NCBI GenBank assembly: GCA_003349915.1
Contig: QFXE01000013.1
Span: forward strand, 1-64,000
Length of the DNA: 64,000 bases
Direction of reading: 5' to 3'
DNA from: an endosymbiont of Escarpia spicata
GTDB lineage: Bacteria; Pseudomonadota; Gammaproteobacteria; Chromatiales; Chromatiaceae
Part shown: positions 12,371 to 21,432 of the stretch, one piece after another
Position numbering within the stretch: position 1 is the first letter of the stretch
Layout: each line of letters starts with the position of its first letter
Translations under genes and position numbers: made by a program
Notes under the pieces: model-generated
What the model was told of the DNA's origin: nothing
Seen by the model: the letters and a program-made list of their open reading frames with translations, nothing else
Database searches by the model: none

Positions 12371-12997
12371 TCAGGGAAAACGATATTCGACGCCTGCCGA
12401 GAAGAGTTGCACAGAGTCTCTGTCAATTTCATAGCGCTTCCACTCCACCCTCAGCGCCGTTTTTTTGTTGATATGGTATTTCACCCCTGCTCCAAATACC
12501 GGATCCACTCCCTGCTTGCTATCGAAGCTGATGGGCTGACCACCCAGCTCGAACCGCGCATCGATATCTGCGTCCCAAAAAAACAGCCCCACCTTTCCGA
12601 ATAGACGGAACCGCTGGGCCACCGGCAGTTCACCGATTATCGATGCACTGATACCCCTGGCGGAGTACGGATGCACCCTGGCCACATCGGCTACGAATGC
12701 ATCCAGGTCACCAAAGTTGCCGCTGATGCGGGATGTCACCTGGCCGAGATCAACCAGGGCCGCCTCCACCGCCAGGTTGGGATTCCACTGATATCCACCG
12801 AAGAGTTTCCAACCGATGTCGGTATCGTCCAGTGTGGAAGTGGTGGAATAGCCCAGCGCAGCCAAGTTCGCATCCAGCTCGGCAGCGTCGGCAGCGGATT
12901 TTGATGCCCCGACCGAGACTCCCATGTACCAGGATCCATCATCAGCCTGGGCTGGACGAGAAGACAGCCTTCCACCCGTTACCAGAAAGGCAAGCAT
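12371..12997 (-). CDS. Outer-membrane beta-barrel protein (OmpA/OmpW-like)
   Basis: The mature chain begins after PAQA and runs as alternating amphipathic strands (WYMGVSVGASKS, IGWKLFGGYQWNPNLAVEAAL, FRLFGKVGLFFWDADI, PVFGAGVKYHINKKTALRVEWKRY, QLFSAGVEYRFP), the layout of an eight-stranded OmpA-like barrel. The start is uncertain. The ATG at 12997 overlaps the TGA of the giant upstream gene (TGATG) but leaves a poor signal peptide. Starting at a TTG near 13039 or 13066 would add a basic RGRRR segment and a better signal sequence. It is probably co-expressed with the giant surface protein and could be a partner in the outer membrane, which is inference. Confidence 0.75.
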   Translation of the reverse strand: MLAFLVTGGRLSSRPAQADDGSWYMGVSVGASKSAADAAELDANLAALGYSTTSTLDDTDIGWKLFGGYQWNPNLAVEAALVDLGQVTSRISGNFGDLDAFVADVARVHPYSARGISASIIGELPVAQRFRLFGKVGLFFWDADIDARFELGGQPISFDSKQGVDPVFGAGVKYHINKKTALRVEWKRYEIDRDSVQLFSAGVEYRFP

Positions 12998-15900
12998 CAA
13001 TGCCACGGACAATTGGCCGAATCTTCGACGCCCGCGCAAGGCTCCGGCAATCCCGAGCCAGGCCAATAACAGCCACAGTTCCAGCCAACCGAATCCACCA
13101 CATCTCCTCCGGCTCCGGCCTTGGCGCTGACCATGACGTTGTCCGAGTCCTCGCCCGTCCCGTCGGACAGGGTCAGGCGCAGTACGTAACGGCCTTCTAC
13201 GTCCGGCGTGAAACCGGGGGTAGCGGTATTGGAATTGCTGAGATCAGCATTGTCCAGACTGCTGCCTTCCGGTATGGAGACGAAGATCCAGGCGTAACTC
13301 AGGCCTTGTGCCGGTGTGTCGGGGTCGGAGCTTGCACCGGCGTCCAGACTGACCGGGATCCCCTTTCCTGCCAGGGTGTCGTCTCCCGCATCGGCGTTGG
13401 GGGGTGTTTCAACCAGGTAGCCATGGACGCTTACCCGGTCGCTGCGCTGGGCCAGGCCGTCCGAGACCTCCAGATCCAGGCTATAGGTTCCAGCCACATC
13501 AGGCAGGAAAGAGGCCACTGCGGAGGTCGCGTTGGATATCGCCGCATCATCCAGTGCGCTGCCGGGCGGCAAGTTGGCGAAGGTCCAGCGGTACGTCAGC
13601 GGCTGAGGCGCCGCATCCGGGTCATAGCTCCCGCTGCCGTCCAGGACGGCCTGGTCCCCCACCAAGGCATTCCGGTCCGGTCCGGCATCCGCCTGCGGTG
13701 GCAGGTCCGCATCGTAGACACTGATCCGGATCGAGTCTGGATTGCTGTCCAGGTCGCCGTCCGTCACCACCAGCGCCAGTTCGTAGAGACCTGCCAGGTC
13801 GGGGGTGAAAGAAGGTTCCGGGGTAGTCGCGTTGCCGATATCGTCCTGGACCAGGGCGCTGCCCGCCGATGTCTGAGCCAGGGTCCAGCGATAGCGAATC
13901 AGATCCCGATCCGGATCGTGGGAACCGCTGCCGTTGAGGATCAGGGCTTCTCCGATCAGAACGGAGAGATCGGGTCCGGCATCGGCCACCGGCACCTGAT
14001 TCTCCACCTGGAAGGCCACCTCACGGGAATCCAACAGCAGTCCGTCGGATACGATAAGCTGCACCCGGTACTGGCCAGTCAGATCCGGTGTAAAAGAAGC
14101 CGAGACGGTATTCGCACCGGCGATGGCCTGATCGTCCAGGGCGCTGCCGGGCGGTACGGCGATGAAGCTCCAGGCATAGGACAGGGGCGCGGGTCCCTGA
14201 TCCGGGTCGGTGCTGTTGCTGCCGTCCAGCTGGACCAAGTCGCCCAAGTGGACAGTGCGATCGGCTCCGGGATCGGCCACCGGGTTCTGATTTGCAGTCT
14301 TCAGCAGGGCGGTCACCGTCCCACTAATTAGCGCGTTGCTCTGCGAATGGATAGTCACGTCCACGGTCCCCTCCCCAAAACTGCTCAGGCTGGCGTTGAG
14401 CAGGATAGCGCCGGTGGCGAGTCCGGGCAACCGGAAGCTGGGGATGGACTGGGTCGGCTGGCCGTCCAGCCCATCCAGGCTGGCGGCACTGATGGCGCCG
14501 CCGGTGCCGGTGATGGCAGCCGAGTAGGCGTCCTCACTGTTGCCGCTGTTTTGCACCAGCACCAGGAAGGCACCATCGCCCACGCCCGGCAGTTCAACCT
14601 CCACCGGGTCCAGGGTCAGGATCAGTCCCTGACTCAGGGGTATGTCGATCGCAGCTGCAGCCCGATCCTGTATGTTGCTATCGCTACGGGAGGTGGCGAT
14701 GACCACCAGATCCAGCGAACCGGGATAGGCGAAGTCGATATCGATGACGGTAACCGTCAGGTCCCGGGAAGCGCCTGCCGCCAAGGTGACTTCGGTAATT
14801 TCCAGGGTGGCGGCTGGGGCCAGGACCCCGCCCAGGCTCAGGTCGAAGGTATCCTGGCTCTGACCGGTGTTGGTCACCCGCATGAGGAAGGTACTGTCCG
14901 GCCTTGCGGCCAAGGCGGTCAGGGCCACATCGACCCCGAAGCCGGAGACGTTCAGCGTGCCCGCGGCCTGGTCTGTCACCCCGGACGTACCGGTGGAGGT
15001 GGCGGTTACGTTGAAGTTCTGGCCACCGACCGCGGTCCCAAGGGGCGCGATCAGGGTCAGCAGCACTTCACGATAGTTGTCGAGACCGGGCGCCACCGTC
15101 ACGCTCGCCTCGCCGAAGACACCCTGGATACCTACCGGCAACTGGCCGGTCAGGTCGTAGGTCTCGGTGACATTGCCGGTATTGATGATGCGCACCCGGT
15201 AAGTCGCCATCGTGCCCTGCCCTGCCGTATCCTGAATTGGATTCAGGGTGATCACCACGCCGTGAATTTCGGCCTGGATCACAGCAGCACCTTCAAGCGT
15301 CAGGTTGCTATAAGCCAATCCTCTGGCACCGCCGACCGTAGTCGCTGCTACTGTAAACCCATGTTCTCCCAGACTGGCAAGCGCATCTGCACGTACCGTC
15401 AGGGGAATATCGATCGACCCGGCTGCCGGCACATCCACGGAGGCCTGCAGGGTCACCCACTCCGGTGGAAGCCCCTGCAGCCCCAGATCGTAAGTCACTA
15501 CTGTAGCTGACGGATTTGTCAGTGTAACGGTATAGAGGCTCTCCTCACCCGGCCGCATCGTGCGGCTTTCCGGCGTCAGGGCCACGACCTGCTCCACCGC
15601 CACGGATGCGGCGGGCAGTTCAATGGAGCCCGCACTACCCCAGGCGGTGAAGTCAACCGTTCCACCGAGCGCTGCATCCCTGGCCTCGCCCGGCTGCAGA
15701 CCATCCAACTGGACCTGCCAGTTCAGGACATGGCTGAGCTGGCCAGTCTGCAGCAACAGATCCCACTGCAGGGTATCGAAACCGGCCCCCGGCATGGTAC
15801 TGTCCGGCGCCCGGTTGAACGAACCCGGCAGGATCACAGCGCTGCTGTCATTCGGGACCTGCACTTGTGCAGTCACTGGAATACCGGTCAGACCACCCAG

Positions 15901-18900
15901 ATCATAGACACCCAGACCAGAGTCGCTGGCGGTATAGAGCAACCCACTGCTGAACAGGGCTCCTCCAACTACACTCGCTGCGTCCACATCGATCACCCTG
16001 AGATTTGCGGGATCGCTGGCATCCACCAGGCGCAGTTTTGCCTGACCATTCAAAACTATATCTTCTATGACGAAGAGGTCCTCAGTAACACTGCGCACGG
16101 TAAAGAGTAAAAGTTTGTACAGCCCTCCACCAGCTAACAGTTCCGATCCCAGTATCACCGGATTCAGGGGATCGGTCACATCCAGCAGATGCAGTGTCAT
16201 TTGTCCGCTCTGCAAAGGGGAACCGTCACTGATGACAAACGGACCATCCGTACCCACAACCAGGGCTCTGTTCCCCTGAATGGCCATGCCACCCAGCAGC
16301 ACCGAACCGGGAAGATCAAAAACGCCGGCTTCGGTGACATTCTGCGGGTCGCTGACATCGAGCATCCGCAGCCGTCCTGTTCCCCCGGCGGCATCAGTCT
16401 CTGCCGAGCTGCTCATCAGATAGACCACGTTGTCCTTCCCGACTGCGCTCTCGCCGATAAAATAGTTACTACCTGGCCACTGCGGATAGGAACCCTGGGG
16501 TGTGTTGTAAAACAACCCCAGGCTCTGTGGATTCAGTGGATCACTCAGATCGTAAATGATGGTGTCGCCGCGAATTCCTACAATGCTGTTGCCCCAGATA
16601 AAGATTATTGTATTGATGAAGGCCAGATCACCCTGCACATAGAGACCCGATGCATGGGTTCCGGTGACGCCACTGGCGGCCGAGGCCAACAGCTCGGGCT
16701 GTTCCGGATCGGCCAGACCATAGACAGACAGATCGAGTTCATTGGCCACCAGCAGGTAGTCACCCTTGATCCAGGTGCGGTTGTTGCCGGCCAAGCCGAA
16801 AGTATGGATAACGTGCGGGTCCTGGGGAGTGCTGATATTCAGCACAGTAACGCCCTCGGTGCCGCCCAGATAGGCATAATCCCCCCGAACCGCCACAGAA
16901 CGCGCACCGCCAAGGGTATCGGTCAGACCGATCAGGCCGATGCCATTGGCGTCATAATTCACCAGGCTGTTGATCTGCAGAGTGACCACTGCCTGACCAT
17001 CCCCTGCCGGGAGGCTGTCCGGATCGACCGACAAGGCTGCGTTCAAAGGCGAGCCGACCAGCAGGGTTCCGCTACCGGAGCCACCCGCAAGCGGTGTGCC
17101 ATCGGACTCGGTGACACTGACCTCCAGTGTATAACTCCCAAGCGGCAGACCGCTGGTATCGAACGCACCCAGGGCGACAGTGGCCACCGATGAGAGCACG
17201 CTCATCTGCACGGCCTGTGGTGCGGAACTGAAGAGCTCCGCGCCACCTGCGTTTTTCACCCGATAGTTCACCAGCAGATCCCGCTCCCGGTTCAGCGCAT
17301 TGAGCAGCCGCGTGGTCACCGCCACACTGCCGCCGGGGTCGGTAAAGGCCGGGGTGCTGGTCACTGAGAGTACGCTCACCAACTCATCCCTGGCGGTGAA
17401 GCTGCCATAGGTTGAACGTTGTACTTGTGGCGCGCCATCGGCGGTCACCACCAGTTCAAAATCGAAGGCGGTCAACTCATCAGCCGGTTGGGTGAGAGTG
17501 ATGTTGACAGCGATCGGCAGGTGGTGGGTGCCGGTAACGCCGGGCTCGACCGCAAAGCCGGCGGGCAAAGTCACTGAGTCCTGACTCAGCGTGGCGGTGA
17601 TGCCGGCGGGCACACCTACGAGGCTCAGGTTATAGACGGTGGACTCGGCCCCCCGGTTCTTCAGATAGAGTCCAAAGTCGGTCGGACTCTGGGGCTGCGC
17701 CTCGGCGCTATTGGGCCGCAGGGCCAACTCGAAATCGTGGTCGGCCATGGCCGCCAGTTGGTCGCCGAATGGCGTCAGGGCGGCGGCCAGTATATCCAGA
17801 GCGCTGACCAGGGTGGCCGGCGTGCTGTCGGCTATGGCCTGTTGGGCGGCTGCAATATCTGCCGCAAAGGCACCCAGCAGGGGATCATCGATCTGCGCCA
17901 GCAACCCACTCAGACCGGTCAGCACCCGCTCCTTGCGGGTCTCATCGGCCTGATCCTGATAGAGACCGCTCAGATCCTGTCCCAGGGTTTCCAGGGTACC
18001 CGCCAGCTCGGGGCGGGCCAGGGTTTCGGCGTCAGTAGCTGCGTTCAGGGCCTGCAGAGAGCCAGGTGCCGCCACATGCAGGTGCAGTGAGACATGTGTC
18101 TCTAATTCGCCACTGGCACCGTAAGTGGCGGTCAGCTGGGTATAGTGATCACTGTCAAGATCAAGTCCTTGCGCCACAAAGCTAATGGTACGGAAAAGCA
18201 CCTCTCCAGGATTTAATACCTGTGGGCCACCAAGACCGGATACTGTGAAGCCAGGCAGCACGTCCAGATTGGCTCCTACCATTTGCACCACATTACCAGT
18301 ATTGGTGAAATTCACCTCGACCTGCACAGTCCCTAATGGAGTGGTATAAAGCATGTCGGGGTCTGCTTCCGCTCGAAGTGTGTAGACTTCGGGCATAGCA
18401 AAAGCCATATTCTGTGTGAGAGTAACGGCTGGATTATCCTCCCGGGTGATAGTGACCGAAAATGGAAGGGCTGTCCCTGGCAGTGGAAGCGAATCGTTGA
18501 GGCTAGGCTGCAGATAAACGCTTGCCCGACCCGTCTTACCGGCTGGTATTGGAATTGTATTGACAGATAACAAAACCTTCCCACCCACCGGATCAGTTGC
18601 CGAAAGCAGAATACTTCCCTCATTCCCCTCATTGGTAATCTTGATCTGAAAGGCCGAACTTATGCTTGCGTCACCAAATGCAACACTAAACGCGGGCTCT
18701 TCCAGTATCTCCATTGCCAACCCAGGTACAGAAACTGTGCTGCCAGAAAGAGAAGTAGGACCTGGACTCACTAATCCGACCACTTCAAGACCAAGACCTG
18801 CCCATCGAATTACACTTCCTTCCACACCTACCGGTATGCCAATGTACTCGGTAAACCGAATAGGTACAGGCACATCCTTGCCAAAAGGAACTTTCAGTAG

Positions 18901-21147
18901 AATATGGCCAATTATTGGGTTGCCGGTATTTGGATCGTTTTCACTGAAATTAAATCCAATACCCTTTTCATTTTTCAATGCCGCTTCCTGCTCCAGTGCC
19001 AACTGCGCTTCTTCAGTCTGATACCACCTTGCATAGTCCACCCAACTACTTTTCAGAGGATGGCCACTCAATCCGGAAGGAAGAGAACTGGGAGGATTGG
19101 CCAGGTATATCATCAATCTATCCCAACCAAATGTATTGATCAGCCACAGAATCCCTGTGACCTGAAGGACAACAGATAAGAGAGCAACATATTCCGCAAT
19201 TCCGTGTCTCCCATCTTCACTGACACCGATTAGTTCTCCGGTTGAATTATCAATTTCATACCAAGCAATAGCGGGATTGCCATCTACACTGACAGAGCGC
19301 ACAGGTATATTGACGGTTTTCTTCAATCGAAGTGCTTCAGTAACTCTGGCCTTGGCCTCTGACGATATCTCAAGACCCATAAGCTTCTGAATATCAGCCT
19401 CTCCAAAAAGATCGATGATCTCAATCTTCTGTTCGTTAGCCTTTTGAAAGACTTCAATCGCGGACGCTGAAAAGGCACCCACATCTTCATCTGGCTCGAG
19501 CATCTGCTCGACTGCATTCTTCTCCAGGATATTCTCCCTGATGCCTCTGATGGCGTTGAACAGGACATCGGCAATGCTGTTCTGCCTTGGGTATGGAATA
19601 ACCCGTATCCGATTTTTTAGAAGATCCAAAGAAGCATGCAAACTCGAATTATTGGTCGCTCTGTCCCCATACACAAATGAACTGCTGAGAATCACTCTAG
19701 GCGAACTAAAATAGGCGCGTACCAAGTGGCCTTCCGCAGTAGTCTCTGTCCAGTAGTCTGAATCCTTGAGAAATAAGATGCCCATATATCGCGTGCTCGC
19801 GATCTGGAGTTGCAACATTAGATCTTTGTAACGCTCAAGTTTGCTCTGTTCTTCCACTGTCCATAGTGATGGATCTTTTTGGCTTATCGGTAGAGTCTCG
19901 TCGCTTAATGCCCTGGATTCCATATAAAGATCGGCAAGCTGGCTGGTTATACTCACGACGGCAGATGTATCGATTTTTCCGGGAAGAATATTGATTGTTA
20001 TAACGTCGTGCTCGGTAATTGCAGGCATCTCGCTATCCACTGCCTGTGGACTATCCAAGCCATGTCGCGCAGCAAACCCAACTCTATCCAGGAGGTCTCG
20101 TGATAAGGTTTCCGTTTCCATACTTGGATCCTGCAGGTCAATTTCCAGTGTCAAACGGGTAAGGGTGGAATTTGCCAACACCGGAGGAAGATTGCTGAAA
20201 AATTCCTGGTAGTTTTGCCCCCGAATTATAGGATTGCTGTCTAATGTAGCTTTGTTGTCCAGTGTGGCTTCGTTGTCATCCACCATCAGAAAAGGTGAAT
20301 AAGTATATGTCTTAAACCCACCAATCATCGCAGATGGCTGATAGCTGCTTACAAAATGCGCTAGTGACAGCGCCTTTCCGTAAACTTCAGGTGTTGAAAA
20401 AGTGTGTTCTAAGGGAGTCTTATACGTAAAGTTAGAGAGAATATTGTGGAATTCCGCTCTGAGTCGGAGTGTCACTTTATGCCGTTCGGTATCAGGAACC
20501 TCGAAGTAGGATGATATTGCTATACCCCGTGCTACTCCGTCAGAATAACTGGGATCGAGCTGAGTCCCATCTTCAAGTTCAACCCACCAGTGATCGGTAG
20601 CTTCAACAATTAGATCAGGGTCGCTTACAGGATCAGCCTTAGCATATCTATCCGGGATATACCCCACGGCCTGAGCCATCAGTTCTGGATCGAACATCGA
20701 AGCGATCAATACCTTGGCATCCGCCTCGTCAAGCGTCCCCCGCACATAGCGCGCGCCTATGCCCTGCCCCCGTAGCAAAGCGATGAGCAGGCTGGCCTGG
20801 TCCAGGCTGTTGCCGGCATCGGACCAGAGGGTTCCGCGCGCGCCGCGCAGTGAGCCAGTATAGACTTCGAAGCCTATCTGATCCCGCACATAGACGAAGG
20901 AGGCATCCTTTCCGGAGCCGATCTCAACCAGCTTCTCCTGGATGAAGCGGTCCTCATGATCGGCATCCACCGTGGTGACAAGCCATTCCGGCACCTCCTG
21001 GGCCTGGACCGTGCTGATGCCCAGCAGGAAGAAAGGATCTATATCGGGGAGGGATAATCGGAGCGGTGGTGCCCCCTGGAACACCAGGAGGACAGAAAGA
21101 AGACGCGCCAGAAACCGAAACCATAGAGTCTGAGTCCAGTGTGACAC
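12997..21147 (-). CDS. Giant secreted protein: transglutaminase-like, LVIVD, NEW3 and PKD domains
   Basis: About 2716 residues from a GTG at 21147, preceded by GGGGAGGG. An open frame continues upstream to 21408 but crosses a terminator. Parts in order: a signal/TM segment near residues 15-45; a transglutaminase-like domain with the catalytic Cys position Ser (GNSLDQASLLIALL, about 112) and ATDHWWVEL (about 185); a long unassigned region; LVIVD-type repeats (about 1396-1752); NEW3-like Ig domains (AL.PESRTMRPGE...); and four PKD/K319-like repeats starting NQNPVADPGADR, VPVADAGPDL, PPQADAGPDR and PPNADAGDDT (about 2280-2670). The in-frame tail has no anchor, but another frame encodes a GlyGly-CTERM-like tail. 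Likely a surface protein. Confidence 0.85.
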   Translation of the reverse strand: MSHWTQTLWFRFLARLLSVLLVFQGAPPLRLSLPDIDPFFLLGISTVQAQEVPEWLVTTVDADHEDRFIQEKLVEIGSGKDASFVYVRDQIGFEVYTGSLRGARGTLWSDAGNSLDQASLLIALLRGQGIGARYVRGTLDEADAKVLIASMFDPELMAQAVGYIPDRYAKADPVSDPDLIVEATDHWWVELEDGTQLDPSYSDGVARGIAISSYFEVPDTERHKVTLRLRAEFHNILSNFTYKTPLEHTFSTPEVYGKALSLAHFVSSYQPSAMIGGFKTYTYSPFLMVDDNEATLDNKATLDSNPIIRGQNYQEFFSNLPPVLANSTLTRLTLEIDLQDPSMETETLSRDLLDRVGFAARHGLDSPQAVDSEMPAITEHDVITINILPGKIDTSAVVSITSQLADLYMESRALSDETLPISQKDPSLWTVEEQSKLERYKDLMLQLQIASTRYMGILFLKDSDYWTETTAEGHLVRAYFSSPRVILSSSFVYGDRATNNSSLHASLDLLKNRIRVIPYPRQNSIADVLFNAIRGIRENILEKNAVEQMLEPDEDVGAFSASAIEVFQKANEQKIEIIDLFGEADIQKLMGLEISSEAKARVTEALRLKKTVNIPVRSVSVDGNPAIAWYEIDNSTGELIGVSEDGRHGIAEYVALLSVVLQVTGILWLINTFGWDRLMIYLANPPSSLPSGLSGHPLKSSWVDYARWYQTEEAQLALEQEAALKNEKGIGFNFSENDPNTGNPIIGHILLKVPFGKDVPVPIRFTEYIGIPVGVEGSVIRWAGLGLEVVGLVSPGPTSLSGSTVSVPGLAMEILEEPAFSVAFGDASISSAFQIKITNEGNEGSILLSATDPVGGKVLLSVNTIPIPAGKTGRASVYLQPSLNDSLPLPGTALPFSVTITREDNPAVTLTQNMAFAMPEVYTLRAEADPDMLYTTPLGTVQVEVNFTNTGNVVQMVGANLDVLPGFTVSGLGGPQVLNPGEVLFRTISFVAQGLDLDSDHYTQLTATYGASGELETHVSLHLHVAAPGSLQALNAATDAETLARPELAGTLETLGQDLSGLYQDQADETRKERVLTGLSGLLAQIDDPLLGAFAADIAAAQQAIADSTPATLVSALDILAAALTPFGDQLAAMADHDFELALRPNSAEAQPQSPTDFGLYLKNRGAESTVYNLSLVGVPAGITATLSQDSVTLPAGFAVEPGVTGTHHLPIAVNITLTQPADELTAFDFELVVTADGAPQVQRSTYGSFTARDELVSVLSVTSTPAFTDPGGSVAVTTRLLNALNRERDLLVNYRVKNAGGAELFSSAPQAVQMSVLSSVATVALGAFDTSGLPLGSYTLEVSVTESDGTPLAGGSGSGTLLVGSPLNAALSVDPDSLPAGDGQAVVTLQINSLVNYDANGIGLIGLTDTLGGARSVAVRGDYAYLGGTEGVTVLNISTPQDPHVIHTFGLAGNNRTWIKGDYLLVANELDLSVYGLADPEQPELLASAASGVTGTHASGLYVQGDLAFINTIIFIWGNSIVGIRGDTIIYDLSDPLNPQSLGLFYNTPQGSYPQWPGSNYFIGESAVGKDNVVYLMSSSAETDAAGGTGRLRMLDVSDPQNVTEAGVFDLPGSVLLGGMAIQGNRALVVGTDGPFVISDGSPLQSGQMTLHLLDVTDPLNPVILGSELLAGGGLYKLLLFTVRSVTEDLFVIEDIVLNGQAKLRLVDASDPANLRVIDVDAASVVGGALFSSGLLYTASDSGLGVYDLGGLTGIPVTAQVQVPNDSSAVILPGSFNRAPDSTMPGAGFDTLQWDLLLQTGQLSHVLNWQVQLDGLQPGEARDAALGGTVDFTAWGSAGSIELPAASVAVEQVVALTPESRTMRPGEESLYTVTLTNPSATVVTYDLGLQGLPPEWVTLQASVDVPAAGSIDIPLTVRADALASLGEHGFTVAATTVGGARGLAYSNLTLEGAAVIQAEIHGVVITLNPIQDTAGQGTMATYRVRIINTGNVTETYDLTGQLPVGIQGVFGEASVTVAPGLDNYREVLLTLIAPLGTAVGGQNFNVTATSTGTSGVTDQAAGTLNVSGFGVDVALTALAARPDSTFLMRVTNTGQSQDTFDLSLGGVLAPAATLEITEVTLAAGASRDLTVTVIDIDFAYPGSLDLVVIATSRSDSNIQDRAAAAIDIPLSQGLILTLDPVEVELPGVGDGAFLVLVQNSGNSEDAYSAAITGTGGAISAASLDGLDGQPTQSIPSFRLPGLATGAILLNASLSSFGEGTVDVTIHSQSNALISGTVTALLKTANQNPVADPGADRTVHLGDLVQLDGSNSTDPDQGPAPLSYAWSFIAVPPGSALDDQAIAGANTVSASFTPDLTGQYRVQLIVSDGLLLDSREVAFQVENQVPVADAGPDLSVLIGEALILNGSGSHDPDRDLIRYRWTLAQTSAGSALVQDDIGNATTPEPSFTPDLAGLYELALVVTDGDLDSNPDSIRISVYDADLPPQADAGPDRNALVGDQAVLDGSGSYDPDAAPQPLTYRWTFANLPPGSALDDAAISNATSAVASFLPDVAGTYSLDLEVSDGLAQRSDRVSVHGYLVETPPNADAGDDTLAGKGIPVSLDAGASSDPDTPAQGLSYAWIFVSIPEGSSLDNADLSNSNTATPGFTPDVEGRYVLRLTLSDGTGEDSDNVMVSAKAGAGGDVVDSVGWNCGCYWPGSGLPEPCAGVEDSANCPWH
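13098..13110 (-). other. Probable frameshift before a GlyGly-CTERM-like sorting tail
   Basis: The giant gene's frame passes GGA GGA GAT GTG GTG. If the two bases at 13102-13103 are left out, it reads five Gly codons in a row, then FGWLELWLLLAWLGIAG, then LRGRRR. That is the layout of a GlyGly-CTERM signal (poly-Gly, transmembrane helix, Arg cluster). The current frame instead ends in a Cys-rich tail of about 25 residues. It may be a real mutation, an assembly error, or a recoding site. Confidence 0.55.
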
Positions 21148-21166
21148 GGTGCCCTCCCCAAATGAT

Positions 21167-21236
21167 CGCAACGGGGAACTTGCGGACTTCGCCGCATCCG
21201 AAAGATGTGCCTTTCCGGTTCCCCACCGGCAAACCG
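21167..21236 (-). other. Structured RNA segment between terminator and start codon
   Basis: GGGGAAC and GTTCCCC close a domain that contains CCGGAAAG/CTTTCGG and GCGG/CCGC hairpins, all on the minus strand just before the GGGGAGGG ribosome site of the giant gene. I do not recognise the fold. It may tune translation or protect the transcript after read-through. Confidence 0.4.
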
Positions 21237-21237
21237 C

Positions 21238-21300
21238 AAAAAATAAAAGCCGGACTGCCTGAACGTGACCCTGACGGAGGTCACACCCGGCAGCCCGGCT
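21238..21300 (-). terminator. Leader intrinsic terminator of the giant gene
   Basis: On the minus strand AGCCGGGCTGCC (21300-21289) pairs with GGCAGTCCGGCT (21259-21248), twelve pairs including one G-U. An inner hairpin GTGACC/GGTCAC extends the stem. TTTTATTTTTT follows directly. It lies about 90 bases upstream of the GTG start, so it is in the 5' leader, where it would stop transcription before the gene. Its 5' arm is also part of the proposed riboswitch aptamer. Confidence 0.85.
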
Positions 21301-21432
21301 TGCCTCAGACTCCCCCACCGCTACTCGAAGCTGCCGGCGTTCAACGCCTGAGCCTCCGCATGCGGGCGGGAACATCGAGCCCCGTTTGCTTTCCGTCCCC
21401 CGTAGCAACAGGGGGGTTGGCTTTTATCGGTA
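21286..21432 (-). promoter_or_regulatory. Candidate c-di-GMP-I (GEMM-type) riboswitch
   Basis: Read on the minus strand, this leader contains a sequence like the first GEMM half: AAAAGCCAACC, a CCCCC/GGGGG hairpin, then GGGGGACGGAAAGCAAACGG, against the consensus GGCAAACC, hairpin, GGGACGCAAAGCcACGG. The second half is GAGGCAAGCCGGGCTGCCGG, against AGCCGGGUUGCCG. An enlarged P2 arm (CTCGA/TCGAG, CTCAG/CTGAG) joins them, and AUACC/GGUGU can close P1. The last element is the same AGCCGGGCTGCC that forms the terminator's 5' arm, so ligand binding would prevent termination (an ON switch). The core deviates from consensus, so ligand identity is uncertain. Confidence 0.5.

Follow-up and report, generated by a model that had tools for sequence, protein, structure and literature searches.

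How does a protein-sorting tail come to sit at the 3' end of a giant gene but outside its reading frame, and why does the frame that encodes it run on into a barrel gene? Both questions arise on the minus strand of the window, the 64,000-nucleotide stretch of DNA from an endosymbiont of Escarpia spicata that was analysed here. We consider it likely that the locus is a disrupted version of an envelope-polyprotein gene, broken exactly at the sorting signal. This reading draws on comparisons with congeners, with other internal tails and with the known GlyGly-CTERM system.

Organization of the locus

The giant gene, delimited by its longest open reading frame and by Pfam matches, occupies 12997-21408 on the minus strand; its start codon is uncertain, the TTG at 21408 marking the longest reading. 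Pfam assigns it a transglutaminase-like N-terminal part, LVIVD and PKD domains, and we read it as an exported repeat protein. Its 3' end is shifted relative to congeners and closes in a Cys-rich ...SAKAGAGGDVVDSVGWNCGCYWPGSGLPEPCAGVEDSANCPWH*. A second frame overlaps the giant's end (GGFGWLELWLLLAWLGIAGALRGRRRFGQLSVALMLAFLV...RPAQADDGSWYMG) and yields GGFGWLELWLLLAWLGIAGALRGRRR, then a signal-peptide-like stretch and then the barrel, uninterrupted and with 0 stops between. Read along the minus strand, this frame contains a residual Gly motif, GGFG (13088-13099; GAGGGGFG in congeners), which would belong to an internal GlyGly-CTERM-type signal and is out of the giant's frame; the hydrophobic segment of the tail, WLELWLLLAWLGIAGAL (13037-13087), identified by hydropathy and helical in the structural model; the basic cluster RGRRR (13022-13036), at once the end of the sorting tail and the n-region of a second signal peptide; that internal signal peptide, FGQL...RPAQA (12944-13021), for which a signal peptidase I site is predicted after AQA; and the mature part of an OmpA-like eight-stranded barrel with its stop (12371-12943). 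Hydropathy across the junction gives two hydrophobic peaks with a charged loop between them. The barrel matches PF01389 (2.6e-22; 79.9 bits, above the gathering cut-off of 21), its AlphaFold2 model (pLDDT 83.5) shows two helices and then an eight-stranded barrel, and Foldseek leads from this model to solved OmpA structures (E 8e-13). It thus shares the eight strands and the fold of the OmpA-like barrels (PF01389/PF13505) and differs from them in standing at the end of a far longer chain. A TTG at 13066, listed as the start of the barrel gene, lies inside the first helix and can hardly be an independent start.

The earlier note on this DNA had described a GlyGly-CTERM-type tail where the giant ends, outside the giant's frame, and its account of the sequence holds: Gly motif, hydrophobic helix and RGRRR are present (and intact and in frame in four congeners), removal of the two bases 13102-13103 yields five Gly, and the alternative frame has no stop before the barrel gene. 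The continuity of tail and barrel, which that note considered odd, is real; congeners and other families indicate that it is the ancestral and widespread arrangement, and it is our principal finding.

The fused gene in congeners

Giant and barrel form one open frame in G002 (2941 codons), G003 (2807 codons, with the first part of the N-terminal region in another frame) and G005 (3084 codons, in a single-contig genome). Counting G001, where an in-frame junction lies behind a run of N elsewhere in the chromosome and a second barrel copy has an eroded Gly motif, the locus or its junction is known from four congeners. The order of the fused chain is exported repeats, GAGGGGFG, helix, RGRRR, a signal peptide ending in AxA and an OmpA-like barrel, and the junction reads SAKAGTGGDVVGAGGGGFGWLELWLLLAWLGIAGALRGRRRFGQLPVALMLAFLVTGGG...RPAQA/DDGPWYMG. 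The AxA of the second signal peptide is AQA, TQA or AEA among congeners, and nearly all other fused genes match the pattern. Because the tail is conserved and in frame in four congeners, a chance origin is excluded.

Other parts of the locus vary within the genus. In G001 (L037/L010, L043/L057) the giant is shortened before the PKD repeats, two tandem barrel copies lie ~1 Mb away with N runs nearby, one with an intact Gly motif and one with the eroded motif, and a separate upstream frame of 537 aa resembles the N-terminal part of the giant (84%). The N-terminal ~750 residues of the giant (18600-21400 in the window) have ~55% identity between sister species, against 75-90% elsewhere, a pattern that, with the separate G001 frame, could reflect allelic replacement or cassette exchange.

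A 16-bp deletion at the sorting signal

Alignment with G002, G003 and G005 shows a single 16-bp gap in the window, between GGTGG direct repeats, at about 13095-13104 on the minus strand, its placement being ambiguous within the repeats. A frame shift in the region of 13102-13103, as first suspected, stands, although its size by congener alignment is 16 bp and not 2. Relative to G002, the gap is the sole uncompensated indel that is not a multiple of three in the aligned coding part of 12.4-18.1 kb. Just downstream of it the two sequences are nearly identical, so that the lesion is either very recent or an assembly error. If it were an error of sequencing or assembly, the 16 bp would exist in the real genome and the window gene would be an intact fusion; the lesion alone would be affected, not the polyprotein. 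The lack of any sign of decay past the gap suits such an error, as does the Gly-rich repeat, a risky stretch to assemble, yet a clean loss of 16 bp flanked by 5-bp direct repeats is what slippage typically leaves, and the surrounding coding sequence contains no other uncompensated frame-breaking indel relative to G002. Furthermore, another internal-tail giant is also broken in the window's genome, which fits loss in this lineage, although errors in repeat genes would fit too. We regard an artefact as unlikely, if deserving of weight.

The Cys-rich ending was considered as a genuine tail and rejected: the same frame has early stops in G005 and G003, and the comparison of C-termini with homologues, set beforehand, found that the Cys-rich tail is not kept. 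On this comparison it is the product of the shifted frame. Programmed frameshifting in the window, which would restore the GlyGly tail and the barrel from two overlapping frames, the alternative one being meaningful, appears extremely improbable: relatives use an ordinary frame with 16 more bases, the early stops interrupt the Cys-rich frame, and no frameshift signal is seen. Recoding, which the earlier note had entertained, is not needed, congeners reading the tail in the plain zero frame.

If the window locus is indeed a broken polyprotein gene, the deletion would shift the tail out of frame and leave the strain with a giant that ends in a Cys-rich tail and lacks an anchor. The barrel would then need its own start. 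It could restart at TGATG (12995-12999, minus strand), a possible restart site made by the deletion, where the stop of the shifted giant frame (TGA, 12999-12997) overlaps an in-frame barrel ATG (12997-12995); its signal peptide would be short and poor.

Selection on the buried tail

Across four congeneric junctions, pairwise comparison of the segment comprising Gly motif, helix and basic cluster counts 46 synonymous differences against 7 that are non-synonymous (pN/pS 0.059). In the adjoining signal-peptide segment of the same junctions pN/pS is 0.50, as expected for a signal peptide, with the AxA pattern retained. The low ratio in the tail, together with the early stops in the Cys-rich frame, therefore argues that the buried tail is constrained as protein sequence; judged by these substitutions, it is under strong purifying selection within the genus.

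A second internal tail precedes Sco1/SenC

The window's genome contains a second internal GlyGly-CTERM-type tail outside the window, on another contig (C11, 34427-35968; L113/L189/L198), where SSGGGGGIGGWLLVLLLGVWLRNIRRESM continues in frame into a signal peptide and SCO1/SenC, so that the downstream partner need not be a barrel. The front protein has a choice-of-anchor-like end and, in G002, Calx-beta repeats. All six genus members have this fusion, with 90-100% identity, and in the five in which the junction was read pN/pS is 0.12. In the window's genome alone, the giant is broken into several frames upstream of the junction; pairwise indel lists for this gene are confounded by repeats, and the broken frame alone was used.

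Relation to the GlyGly-CTERM class

The known GlyGly-CTERM/rhombosortase system (TIGR03501/TIGR03902; PMC3237569, PMC6219818, PMC13393428) resembles the present case in its Gly-rich motif, hydrophobic helix and basic cluster, in the presence of a rhombosortase in the genome, sometimes next door, and in the presence of type II secretion. The three elements occur in this order in the congeners and in other fused genes, and the window keeps the order, out of frame; a rhombosortase is encoded in the same genome. The difference is that here the signal is internal: a second signal peptide and a further protein come after it, ~190 to >400 more residues succeeding the tail without a stop. C-terminal location was a curation criterion in the founding survey of the class, which also considered that this position may contribute to rhombosortase specificity (PMC3237569), a point that counts against an internal signal. 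Because the tail is not C-terminal, we do not file it as a GlyGly-CTERM member; that class is defined by C-terminal position, and the internal form is a new variant, the tail of which appears to work like GlyGly-CTERM. The literature searched, which covered few subscription papers, contains no description of internal CTERM tags or internal signal-peptide polyproteins.

At its default threshold the TIGR03501 model gave zero matches, even in the window's genome, and the searches were repeated with E allowed up to 10 and up to 3; among the resulting matches, those given with a locus were read for their distance to the stop. Relative to the curated cut-off of 15.5 bits, the internal tails of G286, G337, G577 and one Alcanivorax (L170) score above, whereas those of the window's genus, G377 and Thioalkalivibrio sp. 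AKL19 do not reach it; the junction of the window's genus itself has no score at E<=3, which weighs against the polyprotein reading.

Recurrence across Gammaproteobacteria

A profile of junction and barrel was searched against 369 gammaproteobacterial genomes, after which junctions were read and named genomes scanned; a case counted as fused on inspection of its junction, and signal peptides were recognized from the AxA pattern, hydropathy and the model. Fused genes occur in about 10 gammaproteobacterial families and include those of Nevskia sp., AKL19, Alcanivorax limicola (two, L132 and L170) and a Woeseiaceae MAG. In the 28 junctions examined, 41-66 residues separate the Gly motif from the predicted mature barrel, and nearly all close in a signal-peptidase-like pattern, mostly AxA. 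The front parts are unrelated, ranging from a lactonase-like propeller with DUF11, Big_1, He_PIG/cadherin and InlB repeats with a lectin domain to an M26-like N-terminal region with GLUG motifs, MBG, and HYDIN-like Ig with TSP3 repeats. A phylogeny of the barrel domains puts the fused members in at least two well-separated clades, one of plain barrels and one of full OmpA proteins, and forces at least three label changes.

In three other genes (L081, L085 and L100, from G310, G567 and G269), cadherin-like domains are joined straight to related barrels. These lack the Gly motif, the hairpin and the second signal peptide, and represent another way of joining the two parts physically; in G310 no rhombosortase scores above the cut-off.

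Could the fusions be two overlapping genes, the barrel being translated from an internal start of its own and the barrel part of the long chain a passenger of a lost stop codon? Shine-Dalgarno pairing is strong inside L115 (-11.7 kcal/mol), G337 (-10.8) and L117 (-9.5), and G371, too, has an internal start with a good ribosome-binding site, so that in these four the barrel may be partly made separately; fusions to differing partners could, moreover, be tolerated accidents. Pairing in the window's genus, however, is weak, across the fused genes overall it is weaker than at the starts of stand-alone barrels (medians -4.1 and -6.4 kcal/mol; p=0.03), and the open junction has persisted under purifying selection. 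With no stop between the parts in many families, every completed giant chain carries the barrel anyway. As a general explanation, two overlapping genes therefore seem doubtful to us.

Rhombosortase and type II secretion

The earlier note had proposed a search of the genome for a rhombosortase and would have taken absence of this enzyme and of GlyGly-CTERM proteins as refutation; both were found: one rhombosortase, at 140.9 bits against a profile cut-off of 84, and a terminal GlyGly-CTERM protein. In the class sample a rhombosortase scores above the cut-off in 126 of 369 genomes. It is present in 15/15 genomes with a fused gene (the window's broken copy counted) versus 47/117 with an unfused barrel match, which gives a Fisher probability of 4e-6, or 2e-4 when each family counts once in the fused set; members of this set are not phylogenetically independent, and the correction is crude. 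The copy in G087 falls below the cut-off because a contig end cuts it. The type II secretin GspD is found in 20/20 fused genomes, above the cut-off in 18.

In three unrelated genomes the rhombosortase gene lies directly 3' of the fused gene (L115, its ORF cut by a contig end, L123 and L127). The genome of L123, G516, encodes two rhombosortases, of which one neighbors an ordinary GlyGly-CTERM gene with a terminal tail and the second neighbors the gene with the internal tail. L127 is the fused gene of AKL19, which adjoins a rhombosortase gene though no TIGR03501 match exists in that genome at E<=3. The 2011 survey listed three genomes with a rhombosortase and no target, strain HTCC5015, Thioalkalivibrio sulfidophilus HL-EbGr7 and Verrucomicrobiae DG1235 (PMC3237569). 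When the family of AKL19 was searched for these, AKL19 alone gave a strong match; it may serve as a model for such genomes.

A proposed route of processing

We posit that the product of the intact locus is probably an envelope polyprotein that undergoes two cuts, one at the Gly motif, made by rhombosortase, and one behind AxA, made by signal peptidase; both cleavages, like the topology and the fates of the products, are inferred from the arrangement of signals. Sec would export the front part, an N-terminal signal peptide and a large repeat protein, into the periplasm. The first helix would stop transfer and leave the Arg cluster in the cytoplasm, and the second would restart translocation, forming a hairpin and delivering the barrel to the periplasm. 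Signal peptidase I would then cut after AxA and free the barrel for the outer membrane, and rhombosortase would cut at the Gly motif and join the front protein to a lipid-like group, upon which the lipid-linked protein would take the type II secretion route to the surface. For VesB of Vibrio, cleavage by rhombosortase exposes the second Gly, and a glycerophosphoethanolamine-containing group is added before T2SS export (PMC6219818).

Front domain and barrel could instead stay linked by a stable, uncut membrane hairpin, with no rhombosortase cut. The hairpin-less cadherin-like/barrel fusions described above make physical joining possible. A barrel tethered by an inner-membrane hairpin, however, could hardly get to the outer membrane, the Gly motif is conserved, and the fusion is found in rhombosortase genomes only, three times beside the protease gene; we hold an uncut product to be very unlikely.

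The doubly cut polyprotein that we prefer has partial parallels. In FbcH of Bradyrhizobium, a precursor of cytochrome b and c1, the internal signal peptide is thought to be cut by signal peptidase. Polyproteins of this type share the single frame, two envelope proteins and an internal signal peptide, an arrangement found in the relatives and broken in the window; FbcH has neither sorting tail nor rhombosortase, and its front part is an inner-membrane protein. In Myxococcus, the tagged surface protein TraA works with the OmpA-type partner TraB, and their genes overlap by four bases (PMC3325183). Here, too, a sorting-tagged surface protein is encoded directly 5' of an OmpA-type partner; the differences are two genes, a MYXO-CTERM tag and a myxosortase as the protease (PMC3325183).

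The Arg cluster, being common to both signals, explains how such fusions could originate when two secreted genes lose the stop codon that separates them: without that one codon, a GlyGly-CTERM gene and a secreted neighbor would give a topologically sound hairpin.

Implications

On balance, we favor the view, built on comparative sequence analysis, that many gammaproteobacteria set an internal rhombosortase signal directly against a second signal peptide, that a single round of translation would thereby yield a surface-anchored protein and a barrel (or a Sco1-type protein) in equal numbers, and that such proteins may be the missing targets of genomes that have a rhombosortase and no GlyGly-CTERM. 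If rhombosortase acts on internal signals, lists of its substrates are incomplete, since tails have been curated at C-termini only; labels such as "plain OmpA-like" or "repeat protein" would mislead for these giants, and bacterial polyproteins with two envelope products would be commoner than thought. The three target-less rhombosortase genomes of the 2011 survey would then have a candidate answer.
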